This document shows, one piece after another, positions 4,395-41,721 of a stretch of 64,000 nucleotides of DNA (position 1 is its first letter; every line of letters starts with the position of its first letter). A model generated the notes under the pieces. It made no database searches. It saw nothing but the letters and a program-made list of their open reading frames with translations, and was not told where the DNA came from. This stretch comes from Actinomycetes bacterium (GTDB lineage: Bacteria; Actinomycetota; Actinomycetes; S36-B12): assembly GCA_024641635.1 (NCBI GenBank), contig JAHECS010000015.1, positions 1 through 64,000 on the forward strand, written 5' to 3'. A program made the translations under genes and the position numbers.

Positions 4395-4395
4395 G

Positions 4396-22881: not shown

Positions 22882-23969
22882 CTTCCGCTCCCTGCGACTG
22901 TCGCCGGCTGGCCGGCGAACCTCGGTTCGGGCTCGGCGACACGCTCTGCCGCCTCGAGCAGGAGGTCGAGGTTGGCCGGTCCCGGCTCGAGATCACCCCG
23001 CTCGATCCGGTGCGCGAGGCCGACCACGGCGGAGTTCACCGGAGCCGGGCGCCCCAGGGCGCCAAGGGTGCTGACCACCAGGCCGTTGATGTCGTCGACC
23101 TCGCTGTGCCGACCCTTGTTCCAGTCCTGCAGGATCGTCGTCGTCGTGTGCGGGAGGACGAAGCCGGCCAGCAGCGTGTCGAGCAGCTGCTCCACCAGCC
23201 GGTCCTCCCGGTCCAGATCTGCCGCGCGCAGCCCGAAGATCGGGAGCACGGGCAGGCCCTGCTCCCGACCGGCATCGAGCGCCTCCTGCCCGGACCGGAT
23301 CATCAGGTCCCGCATCACGGGATCGGCGGCCGCCTCGACCATCGCACGGCCGACGATCGCGGTCGTGACGAGCGTCGTGCAGTTGCTGACCAGCTTCATC
23401 CACTTCGCCGCCCGGATGTCCGTCACGATCTGGCAGGCACCCGAGTGGGTCAGCAGCTCGGCGATCTCCGCCTCGCGGTCGCGCGCCGCCGCGTTCGGGG
23501 CTCCCACGGCGAACCAGGACCTGTCCGGCGGCGAGTGCCGCTCGACGACGCCGGGCTGGTACATCGTCGACGAGATCTCGATGACGGCGCCCATCGAGCG
23601 GCGCAGTCCCATCACGTCGATGACGGCCTCCGTGGTCATGCCGTTCTGGACGGCGGCCACGACGCCGTCGTCCGTGACGTATGGCTCGATGAGCTGGCAC
23701 GCCCAGCGGGTGTCGTACGCCTTCATCAGCATGAGGACGACGTCGAACCGCTCACGCAGAGTGGCCACCTCGCACAGGTTGAGAACGCGGACCGGAGTCA
23801 CCTGGGTCTCGTGCGGCATCTCCACGCGCACGCCCTCGCGACGCATGACCTCGACATGCTCGGGCCACTGCTCGATCAGCGTGACGTCGACCCCGGCGCG
23901 CGTGAGGTCCGCGCCGATCGACGCTCCGTTGGCGCCGGCACCGAGAACTGCGACGCGACGGTCGGACAT
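22878..23969 (-). CDS. Ketopantoate-reductase-family (PanE/ApbA-like) dehydrogenase
   Basis: A 363-aa NAD(P)-dependent reductase with the N-terminal LGAGANGASIGADL motif (GxGxxG), a conserved Lys/Asn region (KWMKLVSNCTTLVTTA) and the C-terminal helical domain ending in ADRSLLEA-type helices. It is longer than true PanE (about 300 aa). Its setting in a catabolic operon argues for oxidation or reduction of a hydroxy/keto acid of that pathway rather than pantothenate synthesis. Confidence 0.82.
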   Translation of the reverse strand: MSDRRVAVLGAGANGASIGADLTRAGVDVTLIEQWPEHVEVMRREGVRVEMPHETQVTPVRVLNLCEVATLRERFDVVLMLMKAYDTRWACQLIEPYVTDDGVVAAVQNGMTTEAVIDVMGLRRSMGAVIEISSTMYQPGVVERHSPPDRSWFAVGAPNAAARDREAEIAELLTHSGACQIVTDIRAAKWMKLVSNCTTLVTTAIVGRAMVEAAADPVMRDLMIRSGQEALDAGREQGLPVLPIFGLRAADLDREDRLVEQLLDTLLAGFVLPHTTTTILQDWNKGRHSEVDDINGLVVSTLGALGRPAPVNSAVVGLAHRIERGDLEPGPANLDLLLEAAERVAEPEPRFAGQPATVAGSGR

Positions 23970-23972
23970 CGG

Positions 23973-25193
23973 CTAGGACTCCGTCGCGGAGACCTGGCGG
24001 AACAGCTCGTCGCGCACGTACTCGAGCTCACGCACCACGTACTCGGTGATGTCACCCGTCTTGAGGTGCTCGGGCAGCACATCCCAGGTGTAGGTCTCGA
24101 TCTCGAGATGGGTCGACAGCGGCGTGCGGGCGTGGAACGCCAGCGCGTCGTCGATGCCTCCGCGCGTGGTGGTGAACGGGCCGAGCTCATCGAGGAAGAC
24201 CGGCACATGGAAGTGCGTGCGCCAGGAGCGCGGACCCGGGTCCGCCTCGTAGGCGGCGATCGCGTCCTCGAGATTCAGGTACCGGGTGATGGTGCCGTCA
24301 CGCAGCTCCGTGGTCTGGCTCAGGTAGATCGTCCCGGTGTAGCGCTTCAGCTCGGCGACGATCTCGTCGCTGACCTCGGGGACGTTGAGGGCGGCCGCCT
24401 CCTGCAGCTTGTAGATCGGGATGGCTGCGTCGACGAGAAGCTGCAGGTCCTCGGTGATGTTCTCGAACGCCACGGACTGGTGGCAGATGTCGAAGACGAC
24501 GCCGAGGTAGCGGCGCATCGCCTGGAAGACCTCTGCCAGCGGCTGCCCGCTGAGCTCAGCGACCCGCAGCGCCGCCTTGGTGGTGTAGACGTGATCGTTG
24601 AAGTACTCGACCGTCTCGGCGATCGTCTCGAGGTAGCAGTAGGGCTCGGGCTCGAGGGCGAGCTTCACGCGGCGACCGGTCTCCTGCTCGAGGTTGAGCA
24701 GGAAGGCGACGACGCGTAGCAGGTTGTCGGTGAAGCTCTCGACGTAGGCGTCGTCCGACACGTTGGGCCGGAAGGCCAGTGGCGCGGTCTGGATCGTCGG
24801 CTCGATCTCCGGACCCGTGATCTCGGTGAGGATGCGCGCCACGTTCATCGTGTACTGCGTCCGGGCATCCGTCGACCAGTCCGGCTCATACACCTGCTCC
24901 TTCACCCTCTCGCCCTTGAACGGGCCGAAGGGGAAGGCGTTGACCGTGTAGACGTACAGGTCGTTCGAGTCGAGGAACTCCTTGACCCAGGCCCGCTCCC
25001 CGGCATCCGAGATGAGCCGCTCGGCCGACGCGTTGGAGATCCTCAGCGATACGCCCATGGGGGCATCCGGGCAGAACCGCGCCTTGACCTCGGGCACGTA
25101 CGTCTCGAGGCTGGCCCGCATCTCGTCCCAGGTGTCGCCGGGGTGCACGAGGGTCGAGTACGTGAGGTGTCCGTAGCCGTTGCCGAGGTCCAT
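23973..25193 (-). CDS. EboE-like TIM-barrel protein (xylose-isomerase-like)
   Basis: A 406-aa protein that resembles the EboE metabolite-traffic family. The N-terminus HLTYSTLVHPGDTWDEM and the segments MGVSLRISNASAERL, LYVYTVNAFPFGPFKGERVK and EPDWSTDARTQYTMN follow the EboE pattern. Acidic residues expected in a TIM-barrel metal site are present (LEPEPYCYLET). EboE normally occurs with EboA-F genes; none of those are here. It lies between a ketopantoate-reductase-like gene and an E1 beta gene, so an aldose/cyclitol-type isomerase or lyase activity is possible. The function is unknown. Confidence 0.75.
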   Translation of the reverse strand: MDLGNGYGHLTYSTLVHPGDTWDEMRASLETYVPEVKARFCPDAPMGVSLRISNASAERLISDAGERAWVKEFLDSNDLYVYTVNAFPFGPFKGERVKEQVYEPDWSTDARTQYTMNVARILTEITGPEIEPTIQTAPLAFRPNVSDDAYVESFTDNLLRVVAFLLNLEQETGRRVKLALEPEPYCYLETIAETVEYFNDHVYTTKAALRVAELSGQPLAEVFQAMRRYLGVVFDICHQSVAFENITEDLQLLVDAAIPIYKLQEAAALNVPEVSDEIVAELKRYTGTIYLSQTTELRDGTITRYLNLEDAIAAYEADPGPRSWRTHFHVPVFLDELGPFTTTRGGIDDALAFHARTPLSTHLEIETYTWDVLPEHLKTGDITEYVVRELEYVRDELFRQVSATES

Positions 25194-25227: not shown

Positions 25228-26208
25228 TCAGCTGGTAGCCATGCGGACGGCCGTCTCGACCGTCAACGCGACTGAGGGGAGCAGTTCGTTCTCCAGGTGG
25301 GTGGCGAACGCGAGCGGAACGGACGCCGCGGCGATCCGCTTGACCGGCGCATCGAGGTCGTAGAAGCCCTCGTCGGCCACGATCGAGGCCAGGGTGCCGC
25401 CCCAGCCGCCCTGGAAGGGGTTCTCCTCCACGATGAGGATTCGGCTGGTCTTCGAGACGCTCGACAGGACCGTTGCCGCGTCGAGGGGCACGAGCGTGCG
25501 CAGGTCGATGACCTCGGCGGAGATCCCCTGCTGGGCGAGGAGCTCGGCCGCCTCGAGCACGATGGGCATGGACCAGGCCAGCCCCACGAGCGTGATCTCG
25601 CTGCCCGTGCGGACGACGTTGGCCTGGCCGAGCGGGATCACGTGGCCCGCGGGCGCGGGCTCCCCCTTCGTGGCGAACAGCGCCTTGTGCTCGAAGAACA
25701 GGACCGGGTCGTCGCTGCGGATGGCGCTCGCCATCAGCCCCACCACGTCGGACGGCGTCGAGGGTGCCGCGATCACCAGGCCGGGCACGGACAGCGCCCA
25801 GTTCTCGACCGCCTGCGAGTGCTGGGCGCCGAACCCCAGACCGCCGCCGTTCGCCGTGCGCACGACCATCGGCACCTTCACCTGCCCGCCGGTCATATAC
25901 CGGACCTTGGGCATCTCGTTGGCGATGAAGTCCCAGCAGCAGGCGAGGAAGTCGGAGAACATGATCTCCGCCACCGGCCTCATGCCGGTCATCGCCGCAC
26001 CCATCGCCGCGCCGACGATCGCCTGCTCGCTGATGGGCGTGTCCCAGATGCGCGTCGGGCCGAACTCCTCGAAGAGGCCCTGCGTCGACTTGAACACGCC
26101 CCCCGCGGCCCCGATGTCCTCGCCGAGGCACACCACCGACGGGTCCAGGCGCATCTCGCGCGCGATCCCGTCGGCGATCGCCTCGCGATAGGTGATCAGG
26201 TCCGCCAT
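25228..26208 (-). CDS. 2-oxoacid/acetoin dehydrogenase E1 beta subunit
   Basis: A 326-aa transketolase-like beta subunit (AcoB/PdhB/BkdB type). It has CLGEDIGAAGGVFKST, PISEQAIVGAAMGAA, a pyrimidine-binding region and the C-terminal VIDLRTLVPLD domain. I used the ATG at 26208, which lies 13 nt inside the E1 alpha gene and has a G-rich ribosome-binding site. Together with E1 alpha it would form the ThDP-dependent E1 that decarboxylates a 2-oxoacid or cleaves acetoin. No E2 or E3 gene is nearby. Confidence 0.88.
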   Translation of the reverse strand: MADLITYREAIADGIAREMRLDPSVVCLGEDIGAAGGVFKSTQGLFEEFGPTRIWDTPISEQAIVGAAMGAAMTGMRPVAEIMFSDFLACCWDFIANEMPKVRYMTGGQVKVPMVVRTANGGGLGFGAQHSQAVENWALSVPGLVIAAPSTPSDVVGLMASAIRSDDPVLFFEHKALFATKGEPAPAGHVIPLGQANVVRTGSEITLVGLAWSMPIVLEAAELLAQQGISAEVIDLRTLVPLDAATVLSSVSKTSRILIVEENPFQGGWGGTLASIVADEGFYDLDAPVKRIAAASVPLAFATHLENELLPSVALTVETAVRMATS

Positions 26209-27191
26209 TGCGAGCCCCCATCCGCCCACACGTCCGTGAAGGCCTCGGCCGGGTCGCTCAGGGGTGCGGCCTTGGCCGCCTCGATCGCGGCCAGCACCGC
26301 ATGCTGCGCCCGCTGCTCGATCTCGCCGATCTCGTCCTCGCCCACCCCTGCAGCCGCCAGGTGCTCCCTCAGCACCTTCACCGGATCACGCATGAGCCAC
26401 TGCTCGAGCTCGCCCTCGGGTCGGTACTTCGCCGGGTCCGTGCGCGAGTGCCCGTAGTGCCGGTAGGTCAGGCACTCGATGATGCTCGGCCCCTCGCCGG
26501 CTCTCGCCTTCGCGGCGGCCTTCGCAACCTCGTCGCGGACGACGACGACGTCGTTGCCGTCGATGACGATCCGGGGCAGCGAATAGGCACCCGCGCGATC
26601 GGCTGCCGGATGCTCGACGGCCGTCACGGAGCTGATCGGCGTGTACTCCATGTAGAGGTTGTTCTCGCACACGAAGATGACGGGCAGCCTCCAGACGGCA
26701 GCCAGATTGATGGCCTCGTGGAACGCCCCGATGTTCGTCGCACCGTCGCCGAAGAACGCCACGGACACCTGGCCGGACTGCCGCAGGACCGACGACCACG
26801 CGGATCCGACGGCCATCGGCAGGTGCGAGCCGATGATCGCGTAGGAGCCCATCATGTTGCCGGGCGCATACGTCATGTGCATCGAGCCGCCCTTGCCCTG
26901 CGACGAGCCGGTCTGCTTGCTCATCAGCTCGCCGAGGCACGCCTCGGCCGAGAGGCCACGGGCCATCGCGTGGTGGTGACCGCGGTACGTCGCCCACACG
27001 TAGTCGTCGGGCTCCAGCGCCGCGCTGGCACCGACGGCCACCGCCTCGTGTCCCGCGGCCAGATGGGTGGTGCCCTTGACCAGACCGCTCATGAACAGGT
27101 CGAACGCCGCCTTCTCGGTACCCCGGATGACGAGCATCTGCTCGTACCACCCACTCAGGGACTCCGGCGAGGCGACGGCCGACCCGGCCAT
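26196..27191 (-). CDS. 2-oxoacid/acetoin dehydrogenase E1 alpha subunit
   Basis: A 331-aa ThDP-binding subunit. The ThDP motif starts GDGATNIGAFHEAIN and continues to the asparagine pair in CENNLY. The phosphorylation-loop-like YRHYGHSRTDPAKYR and the N-terminal THLAAGHEAVAVG are also conserved. Closest by pattern to AcoA and actinobacterial PdhA. It follows the M24 gene by one base (TGACATG). A butanediol-dehydrogenase-like gene in the same operon fits an acyloin or diketone substrate (inference). Confidence 0.88.
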   Translation of the reverse strand: MAGSAVASPESLSGWYEQMLVIRGTEKAAFDLFMSGLVKGTTHLAAGHEAVAVGASAALEPDDYVWATYRGHHHAMARGLSAEACLGELMSKQTGSSQGKGGSMHMTYAPGNMMGSYAIIGSHLPMAVGSAWSSVLRQSGQVSVAFFGDGATNIGAFHEAINLAAVWRLPVIFVCENNLYMEYTPISSVTAVEHPAADRAGAYSLPRIVIDGNDVVVVRDEVAKAAAKARAGEGPSIIECLTYRHYGHSRTDPAKYRPEGELEQWLMRDPVKVLREHLAAAGVGEDEIGEIEQRAQHAVLAAIEAAKAAPLSDPAEAFTDVWADGGSQWRT

Positions 27192-27192
27192 G

Positions 27193-28605
27193 TCAGGAAC
27201 CCGTGCGCGCGGATTCGGCTTCGACGTGGGTCGCCGTGTTGCGGTGGGACTGGCTGTCGCGAATCGTGTTGAGCGGGCTGCCGGCTGCGTAGTAGCGCTT
27301 GCCGGCCACGAGGAGCTCCTCTGCGGGGAACTTCGTGATGACCTCGGCGCCGTCCTTGCGGACGACGACCTCCTCCTCGATCCGGGCAGCGCCCCAGCCG
27401 TCCTTCGCCGGCCAGTACGTCTCGAGGGCGAACACCATGCCCTCCTCCAGGATCTCGGGGGCGTCGAACGAGGTCAGCCGGCTGAAGATAGGCCGCTCCC
27501 AGATGCTCAACCCGACCCCGTGCCCGTACTGCAGGGCGAACGCCGCTTCCTCGTTGGCGAAGCCGAACTCCTCCGCCTTGGGCCACAGCTGCACGATGTC
27601 CGCCGTGGACACGCCCGGCTTGACGGCCTCGATCGCCACATCCATGTACTCGCGGCAGATCTTGTACGCGTCCACCTGCGCCGGGGAGGCCGAGCCGACC
27701 GCGAACGTGCGGTAGTAGCAGGTCCGGTATCCGTTGTAGGAGTGCAGGATGTCGAAGAACGCCGGGTCACCGGGTCGCACGATGCGATCGGAGAACACGT
27801 GCGGGTGCGGGCTGCAGCGCTCGCCCGAGATCGCGTTGACGCCCTCCACATGCTCGCTGCCGAGGTCGTAGAGGGTCTTGGCGACCAGGCCGACGGCCTC
27901 GTTCTCGCGAACACCCGGCCGCAGGAACTCGTACAGGTTCTCGTACGCCGCATCGACCATAGACGCACTGTGCGTGAGCAGGCCGATCTCGTCCGGCGTC
28001 TTGATCCGGCGCGCCTCCAGGAAGACCTGCTGGCCGTCGACCACCTTCAGGCCGAGCTGCTGCATCGCGAACAGCACCGGCATCTCGACGATGTCCACGC
28101 CGATCGGCTCGTTCGTGAGACCTCGCTCGGCGAGGACCTCGTACACCTTCTTGGCGACATCCTCCGCCCGCTTGGCCCCCGCCCCGATCGTGCCTCGCAG
28201 CGTCGAGATCCCCGCCCTGGCGCCGCCACCCACGTGCTCCGGGGCGACCGCACCGTGATGCCGCTCATGGCCGTTCAGGCCGGCATCCGTGTGCGAGGCC
28301 GCGTAGTCCGCGTCGAGCCACGTCGTCTGGAGCTGATGGTGCCTCGCCGCCGAGCCGAAGTCCCACAGCACCGGCGCCCCGCCCCGCGGCAGCACCGCGA
28401 ACCGGATCATCTTGTCCATCGCCCACGTGCCGATGTGCGTCCCCGTCATGTACCGGATGTTGTTGAAGTCGAAGGTGAGCACCGACCCCAGCTCCGACAT
28501 CGCCAACGCGTCGTTGAGCCGCGCCAGTCGCTGCTCCCGAAGCCGGACCATGTCGAGCCGGTTCTCCCAGTCGACATTCATGCTTCCGTACGTGGGCGAC
28601 ACCAT
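27193..28605 (-). CDS. M24-family (creatinase/DddP-like) protein lacking a metal-ligand Asp
   Basis: A 470-aa pita-bread-fold protein, N-domain to about residue 195 and catalytic domain after. It shares long blocks with the 49083 gene (NIRYMTGTHIGTW, GERCSPHPHVFSDR). Of the five M24 metal ligands the first Asp (FFDILHSYNGY), His (GHGVGLSIWE) and two Glu (FALETYW, ARIEEEVVV) are visible. The second Asp is replaced in TCYYRTF, as in metal-independent creatinase. AGGAGG precedes the ATG. A C-N, C-O or C-S bond hydrolysis or lyase reaction on a small molecule is more likely than peptidase activity. Confidence 0.82.
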   Translation of the reverse strand: MVSPTYGSMNVDWENRLDMVRLREQRLARLNDALAMSELGSVLTFDFNNIRYMTGTHIGTWAMDKMIRFAVLPRGGAPVLWDFGSAARHHQLQTTWLDADYAASHTDAGLNGHERHHGAVAPEHVGGGARAGISTLRGTIGAGAKRAEDVAKKVYEVLAERGLTNEPIGVDIVEMPVLFAMQQLGLKVVDGQQVFLEARRIKTPDEIGLLTHSASMVDAAYENLYEFLRPGVRENEAVGLVAKTLYDLGSEHVEGVNAISGERCSPHPHVFSDRIVRPGDPAFFDILHSYNGYRTCYYRTFAVGSASPAQVDAYKICREYMDVAIEAVKPGVSTADIVQLWPKAEEFGFANEEAAFALQYGHGVGLSIWERPIFSRLTSFDAPEILEEGMVFALETYWPAKDGWGAARIEEEVVVRKDGAEVITKFPAEELLVAGKRYYAAGSPLNTIRDSQSHRNTATHVEAESARTGS

Positions 28606-28681: not shown

Positions 28682-29242
28682 TCAGGCGACGGTGAAGGGG
28701 AAGTCCGCCTTGGCCCTGATGTCATCGATGGAGGGACGGGACGCCATGTACTCGGCCGTCGCCGCGTCTCGGTCCTCCTTGTTGTAGTAGGCGATCTCGA
28801 CGAGCTCGAGCGCCAGGCCGTCCGGGTCGCTGAAATAGCACCAGCGCCAGCCCGAGAGCGGACCCTCGTCCACCACGTTGATGTCCGAGTAGAACTGGAC
28901 GCCCTTGGCCTCGAGCTCGGCCTTCTTGGCGACCACGTCCTCGACCCGGAAGCACACATGGGCAGCGCCGCGGTGGTTGTTCGGCACCGGTCCGCCGTCG
29001 TGGGTCGGCTGGACGTCGTACTCGATCAGTTCCATCTGGGACTTCTCGCCCACCCAGAAGCAGACCTGGCGAAGGCGCGCGTTCGGCACGCCCACGCCCT
29101 TCTCCAGGGCCGGTCCCTCGAACCACGGGGTGGGCTCGTTCGCGAACGGCAGTCCCAGGATGTCGTGGTAGAAGTAGATCGAACGGTCCAGGTCGCTGAC
29201 GATGAGGCCGGCGTGGTGGATCTGCTTGAGGTCGTTGTCCAT
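28682..29242 (-). CDS. VOC-family protein
   Basis: A 186-aa glyoxalase/extradiol-dioxygenase-fold protein. The first module begins IHHAGLIVSDLDRSIYFYHD and the second GAAHVCFRVEDVVAKKAEL, with FSDPDGLALELVEI near the end. His9, the internal His of AAHVCF and the late Glu form a credible metal site. It lies between the alcohol dehydrogenase and M24 genes of the region 2 operon. Reaction unknown; ring-cleavage, lyase and isomerase roles are all known in this family. Confidence 0.8.
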   Translation of the reverse strand: MDNDLKQIHHAGLIVSDLDRSIYFYHDILGLPFANEPTPWFEGPALEKGVGVPNARLRQVCFWVGEKSQMELIEYDVQPTHDGGPVPNNHRGAAHVCFRVEDVVAKKAELEAKGVQFYSDINVVDEGPLSGWRWCYFSDPDGLALELVEIAYYNKEDRDAATAEYMASRPSIDDIRAKADFPFTVA

Positions 29243-29268
29243 CAGAGTCTCCCTTGTGCGGCGATCGG

Positions 29269-30330
29269 CTACTTCGAGCTGACCAGGATCTTCAGCTGGT
29301 CCCCCCGTGGATCGACCAGGACGTCGAAGCCCTTGGCCACGACATCGGCCAGCGGGATCTGGGAGGTGACGGCCTTGGCCACCGGGTACTTCCCCGCCGC
29401 GACGAGCCGGATGACCCGGGGCCAGTCGGTGAGGTTGTAGCACCAGCTCCCATAGATCGCGATCTCCCGGTTCGCGACCTCCATCATGTCCACGGTCGCG
29501 GGCTTGGTGTGCAGCCCGGTCTGCACGACCTTCCCCCGACCACGCGTGCTGGAGATGGCCGTCGTCAGGCCCGGCGTCGTTCCCGAGCACTCGACGGCCA
29601 GGTCCACTCCGATACCGCCGGTCAGGTCGGCGATCAGGTCGGAGAAGCCGTCCTGCGTCGGGTCGACCACCGGGCCGATGTCCATCGCCCTGGCCAGCTC
29701 GGCCCGATTGGGGTTCGGCTCGGCGATGACGACGGTTGCCGCGCCGATGGCGTTGGCGTACATGGCCGAGAGCACGCCGATCGGCCCGGCACCGGTCACC
29801 AGGACGATGTCACCACCGGTCACACCCGCCCAGTCGACGCCGTAGGCAGCCACGGTCGCCGGCTCGATGAGGGCCCCCTCGAGGTCCGACACGCTGTCCG
29901 GAAGCACGGCGCACTGCGACTCCTTGACGACCGCGTAGTTCGCCAGCGCACCCGTCTCAGCGCTCAGTCCGGTGCAGGCCATTGTCAGGCACAGGTGCCC
30001 GTTGCCGCGACGGCAGTGGTAGCAGCGCCCACAGGTGATGAGCGGGCAGATGGAGACACGATCCCCCACCTTGACGTCGCGGACGTCGGAGCCGATCTCG
30101 GTCACGGTCGCCGAGAACTCGTGGCCGAGCGTCTGCGGCAGCGTCACTCCGGTGAGCGGATGGGGCGAGCTGGGCGTGACGATCGGACCGACCAGGTACT
30201 CGTGCAGGTCCGTCCCACAGATGCCGCAGTAGTGCACCTCGACGAGCACATCATCGGGAGCCTTGACCTCCGGGACCGGCACATCCTCGATCCGGATGTC
30301 CTTCGCTGCGTAGAAGCGGGCGGCCAGCAT
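29269..30330 (-). CDS. Zn-dependent medium-chain alcohol dehydrogenase (butanediol-dehydrogenase-like)
   Basis: A 353-aa MDR-family dehydrogenase. Catalytic zinc ligands are in GICGTDLHEY and GHEFSATV. The structural zinc lobe CGRCYHCRRGNGHLC has four Cys. The cofactor motif is TGAGPIGVLSA, followed by VVIAEPN, which suggests NAD. Similar to (R,R)-butanediol and sorbitol dehydrogenases. It follows the fused ABC transporter gene by 22 nt, so it probably oxidises the imported polyol or alcohol first. Confidence 0.87.
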   Translation of the reverse strand: MLAARFYAAKDIRIEDVPVPEVKAPDDVLVEVHYCGICGTDLHEYLVGPIVTPSSPHPLTGVTLPQTLGHEFSATVTEIGSDVRDVKVGDRVSICPLITCGRCYHCRRGNGHLCLTMACTGLSAETGALANYAVVKESQCAVLPDSVSDLEGALIEPATVAAYGVDWAGVTGGDIVLVTGAGPIGVLSAMYANAIGAATVVIAEPNPNRAELARAMDIGPVVDPTQDGFSDLIADLTGGIGVDLAVECSGTTPGLTTAISSTRGRGKVVQTGLHTKPATVDMMEVANREIAIYGSWCYNLTDWPRVIRLVAAGKYPVAKAVTSQIPLADVVAKGFDVLVDPRGDQLKILVSSK

Positions 30331-30352: not shown

Positions 30353-32893
30353 CTAGACGGTGGCGCGCTGACGGCGCACCTGGCTGTAGACGAGGGCGGC
30401 CACGACGATCAGGGCCCCCTGGAAGAAGTAGACCCACGCCTGCTCGAGGCCGAGGAAGGTCGTCGCGTTGAGGACCTGGATGATCAGTCCGGCGCCGAGC
30501 AGGGTTCCGATGAACGTGCCCCGGCCGCCGAGGAGGCTGGTCCCGCCGAGCACGACGGCCGTGATCGACGTCAGGGTGAAGTTCGCCCCCTGCGACGGGT
30601 CGCCGATCCCGATCTGGCCCATGAGCAGGATGCCTCCGATGAAGACGCACAGCGACACGGAGATGTAGGCGAGCATGACGGTGCGGTTGACGCGCACGCC
30701 GACCCGGCGCGCCGCCTCCTCGTTGGAGCCCACCGCACGGAGGGTGATGCCCCAGCGGGTGTACCGCAGCGCGAACTCGAGCGCGAAGGTGAAGGCGACG
30801 AGGATGATGAAGACCACCGGGAACGGCCCCACCTTCGCCTTGATGATGCCCGTGACCGAGGAGTTGATGATCCCCTCGGGACCGTCACGCAGCACGAAGC
30901 TCAGGCCCTGGAGTGCGATGTAGACGGCGAGTGTCGCAGCGACAGGGGTGAACTTCCCGAACCTGATGAGGAAGCCGTTGATCGCTCCGGTGATGACCGC
31001 GGCGATCAGCATGAGGATGAACCCGAACAGGATCTGCCCCATAGGGCTCTCGTTGCCGATGAAGAACGAGGCGACGACGACGAGGAACCCGGCCAGCGGG
31101 CCGACAGACAGGTCGATCCCGCCCGTCATGAGCGCGATGGTCTGACCCAGGGCGATGAACCCCAGGGCCGCGACCAGCCCCTGGATGGACGTGATGTTGA
31201 AAGCGGTGAAGTAGCGGTCGTTCTGGCTGAAGACATACGCCCCCAGCGCGACCATGACGATGGCCAGGATGAGGACCGGGGAGTAGTCGCCCTGGAGGAA
31301 CCGGCGGACCCGGCTCGACCGCGCCTGACGCTGGGCCGTGCGCTGCTCGGTGTGGGCCGTGGCACTGACTGCCGCCGAGACGATCCGCTGCTCCGTGACC
31401 TCGTCTCCGGCGAGCTCCTGCACGACCCGGCCCCGGGACATGACGATCACGCGGTCGCACAGCCCCTCGAGCTCCTTGGCGTCCGACGAGTTGACGACGA
31501 CCGGGGTACCGGCCTCGGCGATCTCGCGGAGGATCCGGTAGATCTCCGCGCGCGCGCCGACGTCCACGCCCTGGGTCGGCTCGTCCGCGACCACGATCGT
31601 CGGCTCGGAGAGCAGCGCCCGGGCCATGACCACCTTCTGCTGGTTGCCGCCGGAGAGCGAGGCGACGTTGGCGTCCATGTTGGGCGCCTTCACGTCGAGC
31701 TCGGTGAGCTCGTGGCCGATGGACCCCACCTCCTCGCGCGTGCTGACGAACAGCCCCCTGGTGAACCTCTTGAGGGACCCCACGGCCGCGTTCTCGCGCA
31801 CCGACAGGGTCATCATGAGTCCCTCGCGGTGACGGTCCGCCGGCATGTAGGCGGCACGGGCGCGGAGGTCGCGCCCCGTGTGCTCCTCGCCGTGGATCTC
31901 GATGGACCCGTCGAAGCGGGACAGCCCGGCGAGTGCCCCCATGAGGTCGCTCTGGCCGTTGCCCACGACACCGGCCACGCCGACGATCTCGCCCGTCTGG
32001 GCGCTGACCGAGATGTCGGAGAAGCCCTTGCCGCTGAGCCCGGAGACCGACAGGTACGTTCCGGTCGTCTCGACAGACACATGCTTGGGCGGGAACGTCG
32101 ACTCGAGCTGCCGGCCGACGATCCAGGAGAGCAGCTCGTCGTCGGTCACGTCCTGCACGTCGGACGTGCCGCGGTACTTCCCGTCGCGGAGCACGGTCAC
32201 CCGCTGCGCGATGACACGGATCTCGGCGAGCCGATGGGTGATGTACACGATCGCCGTGCCAGCCGCGGCTGCCGCTCGCACGCGCTCGAAGAGCAGGTCC
32301 ACCGACGCCTGGCCGAGGGGGGCGGTGGGCTCGTCCAGGATGAGCACCTTCGGCTTCATCACCAGCGCCTTGGCCAGTTCGAGCAGGTGCTTCTGCGCAA
32401 CGCTCAGGCCACCCACGCGATCCTCGAGGTGCGCCGTCGATCCGACGTCGTCGAGCATGGCCTGCATGGCCTCGCGACGGGACCCCTGGCCCGCGAGGAA
32501 CTCAGCGGGGACGGCCAGCCTGATGTTCTCGGCGACCGTGAGGTCCTCGAGCACGGCCGGATGCTGGTGGACGATCGCGATGCCGAGGGTGGTCGCCAGG
32601 GACGGCGTCAGGGTCTCCAGCACCTCGCCGGCGACGGTGATGCTGCCGGTGTCCGGACGGGTCGTGCCGGAGGCGACGTTCATGAGGGTGGACTTGCCCG
32701 CGCCGTTCTCGCCGAGGAGCGCGTGGACCTCGCCGGGCCGCACGTCGAACGACACGTCCTGAAGGGCGGCAACGCCGGAGTAGTACTTCGAGATGCCCGA
32801 CAGGACCATCGTCGCTTCGGTCTCCACCATCGTGGCGGTGTTCTCGGTCACCAGTTCACCCGTTCCTTGGCGCTTCTCGGCGAGGGAGGTCAT
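30353..32893 (-). CDS. ABC importer fusion: two ATPase domains plus permease
   Basis: An 846-aa single polypeptide combining a complete RbsA/MglA-type double ATPase with an RbsC-type permease. NBD1 covers about residues 30-255 with Walker A GENGAGKST (61-69), signature LSVAQ and Walker B LILDEP. NBD2 covers about 275-500 with the degenerate Walker A GVVGNGQSDL typical of the family, signature LSGGNQQK and ADEPTQGVDVG. A linker (about 505-530) leads to a hydrophobic permease domain with GGIDLSVGPLAG and GGRGTFIG. These parts are normally separate genes. The frame is uninterrupted. Partners are the binding protein and a second permease upstream. Confidence 0.9.
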   Translation of the reverse strand: MTSLAEKRQGTGELVTENTATMVETEATMVLSGISKYYSGVAALQDVSFDVRPGEVHALLGENGAGKSTLMNVASGTTRPDTGSITVAGEVLETLTPSLATTLGIAIVHQHPAVLEDLTVAENIRLAVPAEFLAGQGSRREAMQAMLDDVGSTAHLEDRVGGLSVAQKHLLELAKALVMKPKVLILDEPTAPLGQASVDLLFERVRAAAAAGTAIVYITHRLAEIRVIAQRVTVLRDGKYRGTSDVQDVTDDELLSWIVGRQLESTFPPKHVSVETTGTYLSVSGLSGKGFSDISVSAQTGEIVGVAGVVGNGQSDLMGALAGLSRFDGSIEIHGEEHTGRDLRARAAYMPADRHREGLMMTLSVRENAAVGSLKRFTRGLFVSTREEVGSIGHELTELDVKAPNMDANVASLSGGNQQKVVMARALLSEPTIVVADEPTQGVDVGARAEIYRILREIAEAGTPVVVNSSDAKELEGLCDRVIVMSRGRVVQELAGDEVTEQRIVSAAVSATAHTEQRTAQRQARSSRVRRFLQGDYSPVLILAIVMVALGAYVFSQNDRYFTAFNITSIQGLVAALGFIALGQTIALMTGGIDLSVGPLAGFLVVVASFFIGNESPMGQILFGFILMLIAAVITGAINGFLIRFGKFTPVAATLAVYIALQGLSFVLRDGPEGIINSSVTGIIKAKVGPFPVVFIILVAFTFALEFALRYTRWGITLRAVGSNEEAARRVGVRVNRTVMLAYISVSLCVFIGGILLMGQIGIGDPSQGANFTLTSITAVVLGGTSLLGGRGTFIGTLLGAGLIIQVLNATTFLGLEQAWVYFFQGALIVVAALVYSQVRRQRATV

Positions 32894-32951: not shown

Positions 32952-34115
32952 CTACTTCATCAATGCAGCCTGATCATCACCGGACAGCTGCGCGGAGAGG
33001 TACACGTCTCCGGGCAGGTCGTCGCGGCACTGGACCGGCATGGCCGGATCCAGGCTGTCCTCGAACAGCTGGTGCTGGTGGGCCGCAACCGCCGGCACCT
33101 CGCCACCCGTGGCAACGGCGATGGCGTAGTCCATCGCGGTGCGAGCGTGGTCGTTGCCGGTCTGGACGGTCATCATCGGGAAGCCGTTGCCAGCCGCCTC
33201 CTGCTCCTGCCAGAAGCAACCGAGGACGTTGCCGTCCGAGGTCGCCAGCGCCGGGATCGGCTTGCCGGCCTTGGTGAACTCCGGCAGTGCACCCACGAGG
33301 GACGGGCCGAAGTCGGACGCGATGCCGTCGATCTGCGGGTACTTGGCGATGGCCGCCGTCAGCACCTGCTGGCTGAGCGCCGGATCCCAGTTGGTGACCT
33401 CGAAGGGCTCCTCGCCGATGAAGGTGAACTTGCCGTCGGCGCCGAGCTCCTCACGCAGCTGCGTGGCCATGTCGGTGCCCTGGCTGTTGCCCTTCGGGCC
33501 GCTCAGCACGAGGATGTTGCCGCCCTCGGGAAGGGCCTTCTTGAGCCACTCGGCGTAGTTGTGCCCGTCGTTCTTGGCATCGAGTGCGACGTACTTCGTG
33601 TAGTCGACGCCGTCCGCACCGCCCGGGAACACGCGGTAGGGCACGGTCACGACACCGGCGTCGAAGGCCTCCTTCAGCGTGGGCAGGATCGCCTCGCTGG
33701 CATCGGGGAAGACGACGAGGGCGTTGACGCCCTTGGCCACCATGCCCTGGATGTCAGAGATGGACTTCTGCAGGTCGCCCTGGCCGTCCGTGTAGATGAG
33801 CTCCTTGACGCTGGGGCACAGAGCGGCCTCCTGGCGGCCGGACTCGGTGGTGACCAGACGCCAGCTGTTGCCGCCGAAGCCGTCGGCGAAGCCCAGGGTG
33901 ATCTCGTTGGGTCCGCACCATGACGGCACGTCGCCAGCGGCCTCCGTGGTCCCCTCGGACTCTGCCGGCATGGCCGACTCTTCGGGTGCCGCGGACTCGG
34001 CCGCCGCCTCCGACGTGGACTCGCTGCTCGACGACGAACCGCCGCAGGCGGTGAGTGCAAGAGCAGCAACTCCAACAGTTGCAACCAAGATGACGCGATT
34101 ACGCGAGCGTGTCAT
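32952..34115 (-). CDS. Sugar-type ABC substrate-binding lipoprotein
   Basis: A 387-aa RbsB-like receptor anchored as a lipoprotein: lipobox LTAC with Cys24, followed by a Ser/Glu/Ala-rich linker to about residue 60. The mature domain begins near ITLGFADGFGGNSWR and has the type-1 periplasmic-binding pattern (DIQGMVAKGVNALVVFPDAS, DGIASDFGPSLVGAL). It belongs with the permease upstream and the ATPase-permease fusion downstream. The ligand is unknown; the neighbouring dehydrogenases suggest a polyol or glycoside-derived compound. Confidence 0.88.
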   Translation of the reverse strand: MTRSRNRVILVATVGVAALALTACGGSSSSSESTSEAAAESAAPEESAMPAESEGTTEAAGDVPSWCGPNEITLGFADGFGGNSWRLVTTESGRQEAALCPSVKELIYTDGQGDLQKSISDIQGMVAKGVNALVVFPDASEAILPTLKEAFDAGVVTVPYRVFPGGADGVDYTKYVALDAKNDGHNYAEWLKKALPEGGNILVLSGPKGNSQGTDMATQLREELGADGKFTFIGEEPFEVTNWDPALSQQVLTAAIAKYPQIDGIASDFGPSLVGALPEFTKAGKPIPALATSDGNVLGCFWQEQEAAGNGFPMMTVQTGNDHARTAMDYAIAVATGGEVPAVAAHQHQLFEDSLDPAMPVQCRDDLPGDVYLSAQLSGDDQAALMK

Positions 34116-34225: not shown

Positions 34226-35251
34226 CTAGGGACTGGAACCGGCTGGGACGGCTCGGCGAGCGCCGAACAGCCGCTCCCGGATCGCCTTCCAGTCGACGGT
34301 GTAGAGCGCGACGCCGATCGCAAGGGCGAAGGCCTCGACCAACGTGCGGGCGGCGAACGACACGCCCAGCGCCAGCACGAAGGAGTCCAGCTGTGACAGG
34401 AAGAGCGCAGCGAGCGCGGTGGCCACGGGGAAGCCGCGACCGCCGAGCAGCGAGGTCCCGCCCAGCACGACCGCCGCGACCGAGGGCAGCAGGTAGGAGT
34501 CGCCCTGGTAGGCGGTCGGCTTGTTGAGGATGCCGGCCAGGAGCATTCCCGCGAGCCAGTACAGGACCATCGCCCAGACGTAGGCGCCCGTGCGGTGTCG
34601 GCGCACGCGGAGGCCGGCAGCCCACGCGGCCACCGGGTTGGCGCCCACCGCCTCGAACCGACGGCCCGAGACCGTGCGCTTGACCGCGACGGCGACGATG
34701 GCGGTCGCCGCGACCGCGAAGAAGACCGCGTTGGGGATGCCGAAGGTGAGGCCGGCGGTGATCTTCGCCAGCAGGTCCGTGGTCTGCCGGGGAATGCCAC
34801 CCGAGAGCCACAGGACGACCCCGTAGAGCAGGGCGTTCATGCCGAGGGTGGCGATGATCGGGTTCAGGCCGAGCCGGCCGATGACGAATCCGTTGATCGA
34901 CCCCGCGATGAGCACGGCGACGAGGGCCACGAGGCCGGCGTACAGCAGGCGGCTGTCGTCACCGGCCGCCTCATGGGTGGCGACCACCACGGTGAGCGAG
35001 ATGGCGCCGGGCACCGAGAGGTCGATGCCGCCCTGCTGCACCACGAGGGTCTGCCCGAGCGCCGCGATCGCCAGGACCGAGGCGAACGGAAGCATGCCGA
35101 GCAGGGGTCCCTTGGTCACGCTGGACGGGGCGAGGATGGCGCTGAGGGCGAACAGGCCGACGACGGCCACCGTGACGGTGATCATGCCGCGCGGCACGCG
35201 GTCCCAGAACGAGGCCCGCTCTGCGACCTTCGACGTCGTCGCCTCCGCCAT
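34226..35251 (-). CDS. Sugar-type ABC importer, permease
   Basis: A 341-aa RbsC-type permease with repeated hydrophobic helices and the motifs QQGGIDLSVPGAISL and LGGTSLLGGRGFPVAT. It is the promoter-proximal gene of the region 2 operon, 110 nt upstream of the binding-protein gene. With the permease domain of the fusion protein it would form a heterodimeric channel, so the fusion need not homodimerise (inference). Confidence 0.88.
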   Translation of the reverse strand: MAEATTSKVAERASFWDRVPRGMITVTVAVVGLFALSAILAPSSVTKGPLLGMLPFASVLAIAALGQTLVVQQGGIDLSVPGAISLTVVVATHEAAGDDSRLLYAGLVALVAVLIAGSINGFVIGRLGLNPIIATLGMNALLYGVVLWLSGGIPRQTTDLLAKITAGLTFGIPNAVFFAVAATAIVAVAVKRTVSGRRFEAVGANPVAAWAAGLRVRRHRTGAYVWAMVLYWLAGMLLAGILNKPTAYQGDSYLLPSVAAVVLGGTSLLGGRGFPVATALAALFLSQLDSFVLALGVSFAARTLVEAFALAIGVALYTVDWKAIRERLFGARRAVPAGSSP

Positions 35252-35385: not shown

Positions 35386-36978
35386 CTAGACAACCGGGTC
35401 GGACGGGCCCGCCGGAGCCTCGTCGTGACCGATGGCCACCCGACGTCGCAGCTCCGACTTCTGGACCTTGCCCGTCGCGGACTTCGGCAGCTCGGTGACG
35501 ATCACGGCCCGGGGGGCCTTGAAGTGCGCCAGCCTGCCCCGCACGTGCTCGATGAGGTCGACCTCCGAGACGGTCGCCCCGGGGGCCAGGGTCACGAAGG
35601 CGACGGGCACCTCGCCCCAGCGATCATCGGGCCGGGCGACCACGGCGGCCTCGACCACCCCGGGGTGCGACGCGAGGGCGTGCTCGACCTCGACCGACGA
35701 GATGTTCTCGCCCCCGCTGATGATGATGTCCTTGGCCCGGTCCCGGATCTCGACGTAGCCGTCCGGGTGCATGACCGCCAGGTCGCCCGTATGCAGGCCC
35801 TCCGGGCGCAGTACCTCCTTCGTCCCGGCCTCGTCGTCGAGGTACCCGGCCATGACGGTCGCCGACCGCACGACCAGCTCTCCCATCGACACCCCGTCGG
35901 CGGGGACATCGACTCCTCGCGGGTCCAGCACCCGGACGCTCTCGACGACTGGTGTCGGCACCCCCTGCCGGGACATCAGCCGAGCGCGCTCCTCGAACGG
36001 CAGTCGCTCCCATTCGGGCAGGGGGACGCACACGAGGGACGGGCCGTAGGTCTCTGTCATCCCGTAGAGGTGGACGACGGACATGCCGACCCGCTCCGCC
36101 CGCGTGATGATGGTGGGAGATGGGGGGGCGCCGCCGACCGCGACCCGAACGGGCGGGTCGAGCCGGATCGCGGACTCGTCCGCCTGGGTGATCAGTGCGT
36201 TCAGGACGACGGGAGCACCGCACAGGTGGGTGACCGCGTGGTCCGCGATCAGCTGAAGAGCGAGCGTGGGCTCGGGGCGGGGCAGGCAGACATGCCGGGC
36301 GCCCCGAGCCGTGACCCCCCACACGAGGCACCAGCCGTTGCAGTGGAACATCGGCAGCGTCCAGAGATGGACCGAGCCTGCCTGGATGTCGAAGCTCGCC
36401 GTCGAGCCCAACGCATTGAGGAAGGCACCCCGGTGCGTGTAGACGACACCCTTCGGCCGTCCGGTCGTGCCGCTCGTGTAGTTGATCGCGACGACATCGT
36501 GCTCGCTGCTCGGGTCGCGCATTCCTCCGCTCGGGGGCGCCGATGCGAGCCAGCCCTCGTACTCGTCCCCGATGACGACGACGCGCTCGAGCTGAGGGCG
36601 GTCCGCGATGACCCCCGCCACGACGTCCATGAGCCCCGGATCGACGATCAGCATGCGCGCCCGCGAATGGTCGAGGATGTAGGCGTACTCGTCCGGTCCC
36701 AGTCGGGTGTTGAGTGCCACGAGGGCGGCGCCGCTCCCCGGCACGCCGAAGTGCGCCTCGAGCATCGGCAGTCCGTTCGGGGCAAGGACGGCGACCCTGT
36801 CCCCGGGGCCGATGCCCTCTGCGCGCAGAGCGTCCGCCAGCCGATCCGAGCGGCGCCCGAGCTCGGCGTAGGTCACCTGGCCGTATGCGTCGTCCCAGAC
36901 GCCGATCACGTCGGCCCGGGTCGCCGCCGCCCGACGGAGGAACCCGAGCGGTGAGAGCACGACCCCCTCAGCGGTCAC
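35386..36978 (-). CDS. AMP-dependent acyl-CoA synthetase
   Basis: A 530-aa ANL-superfamily ligase that activates a carboxylic acid to its CoA thioester via an acyl-AMP. The P-loop motif is YTSGTTGRPKGVVYTHR (A3), the A5 motif is LYGMTETYGPSLVC, A7/A8 is HTGDLAVMHPDGYVEIRDR and the catalytic Lys is in SATGKVQKSEL near the C-terminus. It resembles medium-chain or fatty-acyl ligases rather than benzoate ligases. It ends the leftward operon of two alcohol dehydrogenases and a hydrolase, which suggests alcohol-to-acid-to-CoA channelling. Confidence 0.88.
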   Translation of the reverse strand: MTAEGVVLSPLGFLRRAAATRADVIGVWDDAYGQVTYAELGRRSDRLADALRAEGIGPGDRVAVLAPNGLPMLEAHFGVPGSGAALVALNTRLGPDEYAYILDHSRARMLIVDPGLMDVVAGVIADRPQLERVVVIGDEYEGWLASAPPSGGMRDPSSEHDVVAINYTSGTTGRPKGVVYTHRGAFLNALGSTASFDIQAGSVHLWTLPMFHCNGWCLVWGVTARGARHVCLPRPEPTLALQLIADHAVTHLCGAPVVLNALITQADESAIRLDPPVRVAVGGAPPSPTIITRAERVGMSVVHLYGMTETYGPSLVCVPLPEWERLPFEERARLMSRQGVPTPVVESVRVLDPRGVDVPADGVSMGELVVRSATVMAGYLDDEAGTKEVLRPEGLHTGDLAVMHPDGYVEIRDRAKDIIISGGENISSVEVEHALASHPGVVEAAVVARPDDRWGEVPVAFVTLAPGATVSEVDLIEHVRGRLAHFKAPRAVIVTELPKSATGKVQKSELRRRVAIGHDEAPAGPSDPVV

Positions 36979-36982
36979 GGCG

Positions 36983-37906
36983 CTACGCGAGCAGGTGGTC
37001 GGCGAACCAGGCAGTGGCCGCGCGTGCGGCCACCTGGAGCTTGGTCTGGTCGCTGTACAACGTCATGTGCGTGGTGTGCGGGAGGACGTGGAGGCTCTTC
37101 TTCGTGGTCGGCAGGGTGTTGAATGCCGCGATCTCGAGGTCCCACAACGTGAGGTCATCGCCCTCGGCAACGATCATCAGCGTCGGGGTGTCGTAGACGC
37201 GCCGGGCGAACGGGATGATGTCGTAGTTGAGCAGGAGGTCGACGCTCTCGACCGTGCTGCTGTTCTCGTACAGCGGCGCCTCGGACTCCTTGAGGGCCTT
37301 GAAGGTGTGGAACGTCTCCGGGAACGGCCACGTCGACAGATCCTTCTCCGGCTCGGCCGTGGCGTGCGGAATGTGAAGGCGGGCGTTCGCGTCGGTGAAC
37401 CGGCGCTCGCGGTCCTCGAGAATGGTCGCCCAGAGGCGCCGGTATCCCATGGTCCCGTGCACCCGACGCATGTTCTCGTAGCCGTCGACGACCGGGATCT
37501 GGCTGACGATGACCTTGATGCGCGGGTCGATCGCCGCCAGCACGATGACGTGGCCCCCGGAGTACGAGATGCCCCACGCGCCGATGCGATCGGCGTCCAC
37601 GTCGTCCACGGTGGTGAGGAAGCTGACCGCGTTCTGGTAGTCGCGGATCTGCATCCACGGATCCAGGTGCTGGCGCGGCTCCCCCTCCGATACGCCCAGG
37701 TTTCGGTAGTCGAACACGAGCGCTGCGATCCCGCGCTCGGCGAAGGCCTCGGCGTAGTAGGGCATCACCAGCTCGCGCACGTAGCACCATCCGCCGGCCA
37801 GGACGACCGCCGGATGTGGCCCGTCTCCCTCCGGCGAGTAGAGCCAGCCACGGATCGTGGTGCCCTCGCTGACGAACTCGACGTCACGTCGCTCCACGGC
37901 CGTCAC
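36983..37906 (-). CDS. Alpha/beta hydrolase (dienelactone-hydrolase/peptidase S15-like)
   Basis: A 307-aa serine hydrolase. The nucleophile motif GISYSGG follows DADRIGAW, a late Asp lies in VAEGDDLTLWD, and His is in LPHTTHMTLY. It starts with a beta-strand domain (VEFVSEGTTIRGWLYSPEG) typical of this group. It lies 4 nt upstream of the acyl-CoA synthetase start and would supply that enzyme with an acid by ester or C-C bond hydrolysis (inference). Confidence 0.82.
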   Translation of the reverse strand: MTAVERRDVEFVSEGTTIRGWLYSPEGDGPHPAVVLAGGWCYVRELVMPYYAEAFAERGIAALVFDYRNLGVSEGEPRQHLDPWMQIRDYQNAVSFLTTVDDVDADRIGAWGISYSGGHVIVLAAIDPRIKVIVSQIPVVDGYENMRRVHGTMGYRRLWATILEDRERRFTDANARLHIPHATAEPEKDLSTWPFPETFHTFKALKESEAPLYENSSTVESVDLLLNYDIIPFARRVYDTPTLMIVAEGDDLTLWDLEIAAFNTLPTTKKSLHVLPHTTHMTLYSDQTKLQVAARAATAWFADHLLA

Positions 37907-37939: not shown

Positions 37940-38992
37940 TCACAAGCGACGTGGGTCCACCAGGATCTTGCCGTGCGCAGAGCCCCCGACAAGAGGCTCG
38001 AAGCCCTTCTCGACGACCTCGGCGAGCGTGATGGCGTGCGCCGGGAGGATCTCGGAGAGGTGCACCCGATCGAGCAGCGCGAGGGCCTCGGGGATGTCGG
38101 TGCCGCAGACATGGGCGACGGTCGTCTGCACATTGATCTCCCGCAGCACGATGTCGGCCAGGTTCAGCGGCTGCGGCGTCTTGTTCAGGCCGACCAGGAC
38201 GACGTTGCCGCCCATCTTGACGATGCCGAAGGCCCGCTCGGCACCGCCGAGCACCCCGGAGGTCTCGAAGACGACATCGACCCCACCGGGGAAGACGTCC
38301 TTGAGCTGGTCGACCGTGATGTCGGCCGGGATGAGACGAGTGTCCGTAGCACCCAGCATCCGGGCGACCTCAAGGCGCCCGGCATCGATGTCGACGGCGA
38401 TGACCGGGCCGTCGTGCGACTGCAGGGCCGAGCAGATGAACGACCCGATCGCGCCCACGCCCAGCAGCACCACCGTGTCTCCGGGAGCCAGGTCCGCTCG
38501 ACGAACGCTGTGGATGCCTACCGCAAGCGGCTGTGCGAGGCCGGCATCGAGGTCGGCACACGAGTCGGGGACGCTGAGGCAGATCGACGACGGGGCCGCC
38601 GCGAACTCCGCGAGCCCGCCGTGGGTGCTCAGTCCCAGCGTGTAGTAGTGAGCGCACAGGTTGGTCCGGCCGGCCCGGCACCAGGCGCAGTCGCCGCAGG
38701 ACACGCCCGCGCCGCATGCGACGCGCTCGCCGATCCTGTGCCGCACGTTCGCTCCCGCGTCGACGACCGTTCCGATGAACTCGTGCCCCAGGATCGTGGG
38801 CCCGACATGACCGCTGTTCGGATGGGGCTTCTCCAGGGGCACCATCATCGGTCCCTTGGAGTACTCCGTGGCGTCGGTTCCGCACAGTCCGTTGTAGATG
38901 ACCTTGACGACGACGTCGTCCGCGCCGAACTCGGGGTCCGGGCGATCCTCGACCCGAAGGTCGTGCGGTGCGTAGAGGACTCCGGCCTTCAT
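37940..38992 (-). CDS. Zn-dependent medium-chain alcohol dehydrogenase
   Basis: A 350-aa MDR dehydrogenase with catalytic-zinc motifs GLCGTDATEY and GHEFIGTVVDAG, a full structural lobe (CGDCAWCRAGRTNLC) and cofactor motif LGVGAIGSFI followed by AVDIDAGR (acidic residue favouring NAD). I used the ATG at 38992, one base after the stop of the preceding gene (TGACATG); a longer frame extends into that gene. It resembles butanediol/threonine-type enzymes. Substrate unknown. Confidence 0.86.
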   Translation of the reverse strand: MKAGVLYAPHDLRVEDRPDPEFGADDVVVKVIYNGLCGTDATEYSKGPMMVPLEKPHPNSGHVGPTILGHEFIGTVVDAGANVRHRIGERVACGAGVSCGDCAWCRAGRTNLCAHYYTLGLSTHGGLAEFAAAPSSICLSVPDSCADLDAGLAQPLAVGIHSVRRADLAPGDTVVLLGVGAIGSFICSALQSHDGPVIAVDIDAGRLEVARMLGATDTRLIPADITVDQLKDVFPGGVDVVFETSGVLGGAERAFGIVKMGGNVVLVGLNKTPQPLNLADIVLREINVQTTVAHVCGTDIPEALALLDRVHLSEILPAHAITLAEVVEKGFEPLVGGSAHGKILVDPRRL

Positions 38993-38993
38993 G

Positions 38994-39971
38994 TCAGGCC
39001 GCGTCCGAGGTGTAGTGCACCTTGACCTGGCTCTTGTCCTCGAGCACGGTCTGGATGGCCTGGTCGGCGTCGGCGAGCGGGAAGGTCCTCGTGACGAGAG
39101 GGGACAGGTCGATGCCGGTCCTGGCGAGGAAGGCGATGGTCTGCGGCCACACTCCCGGGGAGCCGATGATGCCGCGCGCCTGAAGCTCCTTGGACTGGAA
39201 CAGTCCCAGCTTCGCCGGAGCACTCCCGCCCACGTCGATGCCGATGTAGACGATCCGGGCCCGGAAGCCGGCCACCTCGAGGGCGGACGCCATGGCAGTC
39301 GGCTTGCCGCTCGCCTCGAACACCACGCTGGCGCCCTTGCCGCCGGTCAGCTCCTGGACCTCGTCGAGGAAGGTGTCGGACGTGGGGTCGACGGCGACAT
39401 CCGCTCCGAGTCGCTGGGCGATGGCGACCCGATCCGCCGACGGCTCGGCAACGATGACGCGCGTGCCCTTCGCGGCCGCCGCCGCGACGACGCCCAGGCC
39501 GATGGGGCCGGCACCGAGGACGACGGCCGTGTCGCTGCCATCGAGGTTGTCCGCTCGCACGGTCGCGTAGTAGCCGCAGCTGAACGGCTCGACGAGCGCC
39601 CCCTGGGTCCAGCTCACGTTGTCCGGGATCTTGTGCAGCCAGTCGGCCTTGGCGACGAAGAACTCCGCTCCCGCTCCGCTGATGCTGAAGCCGAAGTGCT
39701 CGACGCCGATGACGCACTCGCCGACCACCCGGTCGCCGGGCTTGAGCGTCGTCACCTTCGAGCCGACCTCCATGACCTCCGCCGACCACTCATGGCCGGG
39801 GATGATCGGGTAGCCGAAGGGGATGATGTACCGGCCCTCGAGCAGCTCGATGTCCGAATGGCAGATCCCGACGGCACGGCTGGCGAGGAGGACCTCGTCA
39901 TCCGCGATCCCCGGAACGGCGAGGTCGTTGACGGCGTATTCGCCGGGAGCGGTGAACTGCAGGGCCTTCAT
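38994..39971 (-). CDS. MDR alcohol dehydrogenase lacking the structural zinc lobe
   Basis: A 325-aa medium-chain dehydrogenase. The catalytic-zinc motifs GICHSDIELL and PGHEWSAEV are intact and the cofactor site is LGAGPIGLGV with VAEPSADR. The four-cysteine structural lobe expected after GDRVVGE is absent (GDRVVGECVIGVEHFGF...), so it binds at most one zinc. It is the first gene of the operon, under a clear promoter at 40015-40043. It probably acts on the same compound as the following dehydrogenase. Confidence 0.84.
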   Translation of the reverse strand: MKALQFTAPGEYAVNDLAVPGIADDEVLLASRAVGICHSDIELLEGRYIIPFGYPIIPGHEWSAEVMEVGSKVTTLKPGDRVVGECVIGVEHFGFSISGAGAEFFVAKADWLHKIPDNVSWTQGALVEPFSCGYYATVRADNLDGSDTAVVLGAGPIGLGVVAAAAAKGTRVIVAEPSADRVAIAQRLGADVAVDPTSDTFLDEVQELTGGKGASVVFEASGKPTAMASALEVAGFRARIVYIGIDVGGSAPAKLGLFQSKELQARGIIGSPGVWPQTIAFLARTGIDLSPLVTRTFPLADADQAIQTVLEDKSQVKVHYTSDAA

Positions 39972-41679: not shown

Positions 41680-41721
41680 GCCCAACTCCTCTCGTCTGCC
41701 CTGGTTGCCTGCCGTCCGTGC

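Follow-up and report, generated by a model that had tools for sequence, protein, structure and literature searches.

Architecture of the fused gene

Does a single open frame of a marine actinobacterium encode a genuine fusion of a tandem ATPase with a permease, and does the resulting chain work with a second, separately encoded permease in a fixed ratio? The question is raised by the window, i.e., the whole stretch of 64,000 nucleotides analysed here, for which an earlier note had described a double ATPase and a permease joined in one 846-aa chain of a sugar importer, complemented by another permease gene of the same operon. Re-reading of the frame reproduced the coordinates, length, start and stop given there: the frame is intact, 846 codons long, begins with ATG and contains no stop other than the terminal TAG (Table 1). 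A Pfam scan detected two ABC_tran domains followed by BPD_transp_2 (residues 567–832), which bears out the described double ATPase and permease in one chain. The separate permease gene proved to be real as well, its product also matching a permease domain.

The genes of the partner permease and the binding protein are located upstream of the fusion and read in the same direction, with the binding-protein gene placed between the two others. PF02653 was detected in both permeases and the best match of the partner was the ribose permease model. The assignment to the CUT2 type held, as the system combines a tandem ATPase related to RbsA, AraG and XylG, RbsC-class permeases with the BPD_transp_2 domain and a Peripla_BP_4 binding protein; the one departure is that ATPase and permease are not separate polypeptides, a trait which is usual for CUT2 systems and not strictly defining. 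The best NCBIfam matches of the tandem ATPase were AraG, AlsA, RbsA, XylG and LsrA (380–395 bits), and all named CUT2 equivalogs (RbsA, AraG, XylG, LsrA and YtfR) stayed below their curated cut-offs, e.g., 394.8 versus 689 bits for AraG.

Table 1. Coordinates of the fused gene, its domains, neighbouring genes and related permease–amidohydrolase fusions. Positions refer to the window unless a locus is given.
Feature	Coordinates	Strand	Remarks
Ketopantoate-reductase family protein	22878–23969	-	same kind annotated near fused loci L075 and L076
EboE-type TIM barrel	23973–25193	-	NF035939, 392.8 bits vs cut-off 250
E1 dehydrogenase beta subunit (TPP)	25228–26229	-	
E1 dehydrogenase alpha subunit (TPP)	26196–27191	-	
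M24 family protein, creatinase/DddP-like	27193–28605	-	below family cut-offs
VOC/glyoxalase family protein	28682–29248	-	
Zn-dependent alcohol dehydrogenase	29269–30330	-	adjoins the fusion
Fused ABC protein (ATPase domain 1, ATPase domain 2, linker, membrane domain)	30353–32893	-	846 aa, single frame
Fused membrane domain (BPD_transp_2)	30353–31273	-	EAA-type loop VGSNEEAARRVG
Variable linker	31274–31357	-	about residues 513–540
ATPase domain 2	31379–32056	-	about residues 280–505
ATPase domain 1	32129–32818	-	about residues 26–255
Periplasmic-type substrate-binding protein	32952–34115	-	Peripla_BP_4, PF13407
Partner permease	34226–35251	-	341 aa; EAA-type loop VGANPVAAWAAG; PF02653 match
Acyl-CoA synthetase family protein	35386–36978	-	
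Alpha/beta hydrolase	36983–37906	-	
Zn-dependent alcohol dehydrogenase	37940–38989	-	
Zn-dependent alcohol dehydrogenase	38994–39971	-	conserved near many fused loci
XRE-cupin regulator	40070–40813	-	candidate regulator of the cluster
SDR oxidoreductase	40894–41685	-	conserved in the closest clusters
Permease–amidohydrolase fusions	L124:5330–7780; L126:5326–7827; L128:672–3299 (minus)		N-ethylammeline chlorohydrolase/deaminase kind; beside split ATPase

Distribution of the fusion

The search for this domain order in other genomes, suggested in the earlier note, revealed it in one frame at 33 further loci, belonging to Actinomycetota genomes, a 'Marinovum' MAG and Alphaproteobacterial or Rhodococcus plasmids. 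Among relatives, one-frame homologues with no internal stop were present in 9 of 99 genomes at 11 places (own genome included, E ≤ 1e-150). Within the order, the same architecture was found in 11 of 166 genomes, again including the own one (E ≤ 1e-130), and a class-level search of 394 genomes at the same threshold gave 10 genomes with a match, nine of them, own included, in one frame and the tenth split by a stop. In the phylum search (396 genomes, E ≤ 1e-100), 36 genomes had a match and, among the 43 places listed, four covered the full query without a stop (own genome, G436, G471 and G223), the rest being split or ATPase only. A scan of genome contigs gave four of five loci in one frame and an ATPase fragment as the fifth. 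Plasmids contributed 19 single-piece, full-length matches (H1–H19) among the 40 listed, with 38–59% identity and hosts such as rhizobia, Loktanella, Thioclava, Aminobacter and Rhodococcus; 11 of the 19 were fetched. In public plasmid records, the fusion proteins carry the annotation 'ATP-binding cassette domain-containing protein'.

The comparison set comprised 34 fused loci, window included, after the removal of repeats (L089 of L041, L090 of L044 and L109 of L042) and of loci present a second time in shorter form, their wider-flanked versions having been fetched later (L031–L040, L046, L047, L064 and L080–L088). L045, an ATPase fragment, was left out of the analysis. A place in the own genome with one TGA (C81, L002) was rejected, since it holds an ordinary ATPase gene with a permease gene of its own downstream of it. 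The closest loci, L041–L044, encode proteins 66–82% identical to the window fusion. One of them, L043, lies on a contig binned as Marinovum (Roseobacteraceae) and combines a fusion of 66% identity with an Actinomycetota gene order, pointing to lateral transfer or a mis-binned contig.

Partner permease and proposed composition of the complex

Exactly one lone CUT2-type permease was found at each of the 34 fused loci, the count in the 33 loci other than the window being made within 3 kb on the same strand; it was located upstream of the fusion in 26 loci and downstream in 8. At least one binding-protein gene was present within 6 kb of each of the 33 other fusions, and the window likewise has one. 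In the permease tree, 33 partner permeases formed one clade and 33 fused permeases formed another together with five split ones. The distance matrices of fused and partner permeases from 33 systems were correlated with r of 0.93, a value reached in 0 of 2000 permutations, although shared operon inheritance without direct contact also yields such correlated distances. An equal correlation (0.93; 0 of 2000 permutations) was obtained for the ATPases and partner permeases. Since the two permeases within one system are only 22–29% identical, they are not interchangeable copies, and the EAA-type coupling loop is kept in both of them.

A fixed 1:1 heterodimer of permeases is in agreement with the constant presence of a lone, co-diverging partner (34/34 loci; r 0.93 in 33 systems), which also supports the idea of a transporter of fixed stoichiometry put forward in the earlier note. 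Due to the lone permease at every locus, the co-divergence and the coupling loops in both permeases, the simplest complex would consist of one fusion and one partner. It is thus quite probable, judging from the sequences, that the locus encodes an importer of the CUT2 type in which an RbsA-like tandem ATPase and an RbsC-like permease form one polypeptide, which pairs 1:1 and obligately with the partner permease. Each complex would then have two ATPase domains and a pair of unlike membrane domains, and would receive its substrate from the binding protein whose gene lies between those of the fusion and the partner; the tethering would fix which permease sits with the ATPases.

Single-permease CUT2 systems usually have homodimeric permeases, E. 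coli Rbs with its one permease gene being an example, and the fusion could likewise form a homodimer with four ATPase and two membrane domains, leaving the separate permease to serve another ATPase. Such an arrangement is improbable, however, for a permease that accompanies all 34 fusions, has a clade to itself and diverges in step with the fusion.

The junction between ATPase and permease

Like the homodimer, a second departure from the 1:1 pairing of fusion and partner concerns the fate of the chain, and it was considered together with the properties of the junction. In the 33 other fused loci, the ATPase and permease profile matches are spaced by 26–41 residues. Between the window and L041, 8 of the 20 linker residues at positions 513–532 are kept. 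A linker so variable and poorly conserved might be the place where a precursor is cut to give an ordinary importer with separate subunits, but fusions usually have variable linkers and no conserved cleavage motif was found in the five-row alignment, so only a slight chance is left to this explanation. AlphaFold2 modelling based on five sequences (the window protein and L041–L044) gave a mean pLDDT of 52.6, with values below 50 for residues 513–846, a quality insufficient for reading the geometry of the tether from the model. The production of a separate permease from an internal start was judged unlikely: the sole in-frame start codon in the region of residues 501–560 is Met547, located inside the first membrane segment, with no obvious ribosome site upstream.

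Split ATPase and permease genes adjoin in ordinary CUT2 operons, and the loss of a stop codon between two such genes through an assembly or sequencing error, the objection raised in the earlier note, is a negligible prospect that is excluded by the relatives with the same fusion (33 other loci of similar spacing) and disagrees with the GC3 of 0.86–1.00 across the entire frame, even through the junction. The fused architecture is genuine, of old origin and common to these loci.

ATP-site motifs

ATPase domain 1 contains a canonical Walker A with Lys67 (GENGAGKST), a Walker B with Glu188 (DEPT) and the H-loop His, together with a degenerate signature (LSVAQ). In domain 2, the signature LSGGNQQK is intact, the Walker A Lys is replaced by Gln314 (GNGQ) and the H-loop His by Ser. 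The Walker A Lys, Walker B Glu and H-loop His of domain 1 were each kept in 33 of 33 fused rows, as was the LSGG of domain 2 with its signature Ser and Gly, and Ser occupied the H-loop position of domain 2 in 31 of them. From this motif pattern, the composite ATP site to which domain 1 contributes Walker A, Walker B and the H-loop His, and domain 2 the signature, is predicted to be capable of hydrolysis and the other one to be degenerate. A canonical and a degenerate site were recognized by the same motifs in E. coli RbsA, much as in the fusion. The Lys to Gln change in Walker A2 was present in all 38 clade members (33 fused and five nested split rows), and Arg was found at this position in 26 of the 31 other split rows; by this alignment, Gln at Walker A2 is a mark of the main fusion clade.

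Evolutionary history

The first tree was built for 70 systems, 34 fused and 36 split, three of the latter from E. coli. It placed 33 of the 34 fused rows in one supported group, which also contained five split rows (L065–L068 and L070). A more careful tree was restricted to 40 of the 70 systems: most of the split rows from outside the group were omitted, along with two of the nested ones and four fused rows that were near-duplicates; split rows were again located inside the fused group, and a clade composed of fused rows only was rejected (p-AU 0.005). We lean towards the reading that, within the main clade, the fusion had either two or more origins or a single one followed by fission in the L065–L068/L070 group, in which case the split rows of this group would not just retain the ancestral state of the outgroup; either course is compatible with the 1:1 importer. 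In favour of it are the nesting of split rows and the rejected fused-only clade, as well as L101, a further, separate fusion. On the other hand, the trees were flagged for long branches and for uneven composition, and the split group was named after the first tree had been seen. The fusion of L101 (2747–5230, plus strand) has a Lys-rich linker and is accompanied by one lone permease and a binding protein.

Gene neighbourhood and putative substrate

The fusion in the window is surrounded by genes for Zn-alcohol dehydrogenases, a TPP-dependent E1 pair and M24, VOC and EboE-type proteins, and not by genes for sugar kinases. Loci L041–L044 keep the order of permease, binding protein, fusion, alcohol dehydrogenase, VOC, M24 and EboE-type protein, and several of these kinds recur at more distant fused loci too. 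Matches of the binding protein to sugar-type binding proteins and structures were weak (best 4.9e-12). The 'sugar' assumed in the earlier note is unproven as the substrate, since the surrounding genes give no pointer to a plain sugar; they weakly suggest a polyol, cyclitol-like or aromatic-related carbon source, which the neighbouring dehydrogenases would oxidise.

The clusters of Rhizobium, Sinorhizobium and Loktanella add a 2,3-butanediol dehydrogenase, a Gfo/Idh/MocA protein, an intradiol dioxygenase (its Loktanella counterpart being annotated simply 'dioxygenase') and a maleylacetate reductase. Other fused loci adjoin genes for nitrile hydratase and amidase, or P450 genes. Because the Rhodococcus and rhizobial clusters carry different enzymes, the fused lineage is unlikely to share a single substrate, and its members probably import different ones. 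A literature search on hydroxyquinol-type clusters yielded nothing that bears on the substrate.

Two further observations concern the window. The EboE-type TIM barrel stands inside an apparent catabolic operon, and an alpha-L-rhamnosidase is encoded at 1357–3618 (minus strand), beside ABC genes at 3615–5565.

A related split group with a permease–amidohydrolase fusion

A related group of split systems shows the gene order partner permease, binding protein, ATPase and permease (L124, L126, L127 and L128; in L125 and L129 the contig cuts off one end of the locus). The ATPase and permease frames share a 4-nt overlap in L124 and L126. Here, the permease equivalent to the fused one continues into a C-terminal amidohydrolase, with PF01979 detected in all three proteins scanned (L124, L126 and L128) and NF006056 above its cut-off in both of those scanned with it. 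Homologues of M24 are located near L124, L126, L127 and L128, and E1-type homologues near L124, L126 and L127, so the pathway of this group seems to be related to that of the fused loci.

A tentative and rather doubtful extension is that the lineage uses its permease as a fusion hub. In most members, the degenerate ATPase half would be tied to one fixed permease, and the pump would be locked in an asymmetric form, with only a single ATP site and a single defined pairing of permeases at work; in the related group, the same permease, carrying a cytoplasmic amidohydrolase, would couple entry directly to the first hydrolytic step. The permease–amidohydrolase form makes such coupling of transport and metabolism testable. 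Elsewhere, at G000:C65:101185–103386, three BPD_transp_2 matches were noticed in frames of 771 aa, perhaps a permease–permease fusion.

Relation to known transporters

CUT2 ATPases and permeases are normally separate, as the earlier note had it; this holds for Rbs, Ytf and Lsr of E. coli and for the majority of rows from the phylum search. RbsABC, YtfQRT-YjfF and LsrACDB of E. coli resemble the fusion system in having a tandem ATPase, RbsC-type permeases, a binding protein and a canonical plus a degenerate site, and Ytf and Lsr further resemble it in encoding two unlike permeases; all three differ from it in the separate ATPase and permease genes and in Arg instead of Gln at Walker A2. The Paraburkholderia plasmid locus L118 encodes a split ATPase and two permeases, a set equivalent to the fusion and its partner, among enzymes of the same kinds as in the fused Rhizobium, Sinorhizobium and Loktanella clusters, but its ATPase and permease genes overlap without being fused, whereas in the window they form one frame.

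No description of a CUT2 ATPase–permease fusion was found in the open-access literature searched. The ingredients are already known, and the architecture amounts to a variant within a familiar class of transporters. As searches of solved structures gave no chain similar in sequence to E. coli RbsC (phmmer) or to the profile of the partner permease clade at E up to 0.1, structural work on CUT2 importers could conveniently turn to a single-chain ATPase–permease whose partner is defined; such a structure would also reveal how ATPase halves and permeases are matched. With the partner permease of the window as the phmmer query and E up to 1, only three weak eIF2B chains were matched.

ABCG half-transporters resemble the fusion in having the ATPase before the membrane domain in one chain, but they belong to an exporter-type family and have one ATPase per chain. 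Siderophore importers of the Yersinia type have one ATPase per chain too and represent an ABC family different from that of the CUT2 fusion. Like the fusion, the latter are importers with permease and ATPase in one chain, and they are described as such in a passage of a cheese Arthrobacter genome paper (PMC2991359). The window itself contains another chain of this sort, a LivM-LivG type frame at 59663–61870 (minus strand, start position provisional). It resembles the fusion in combining a BPD_transp_2 permease and an ATPase in one open frame and differs from it in that the permease comes first and is followed by a single ATPase domain (ABC_tran with BCA_ABC_TP_C), as in an importer of the branched-chain amino acid type.
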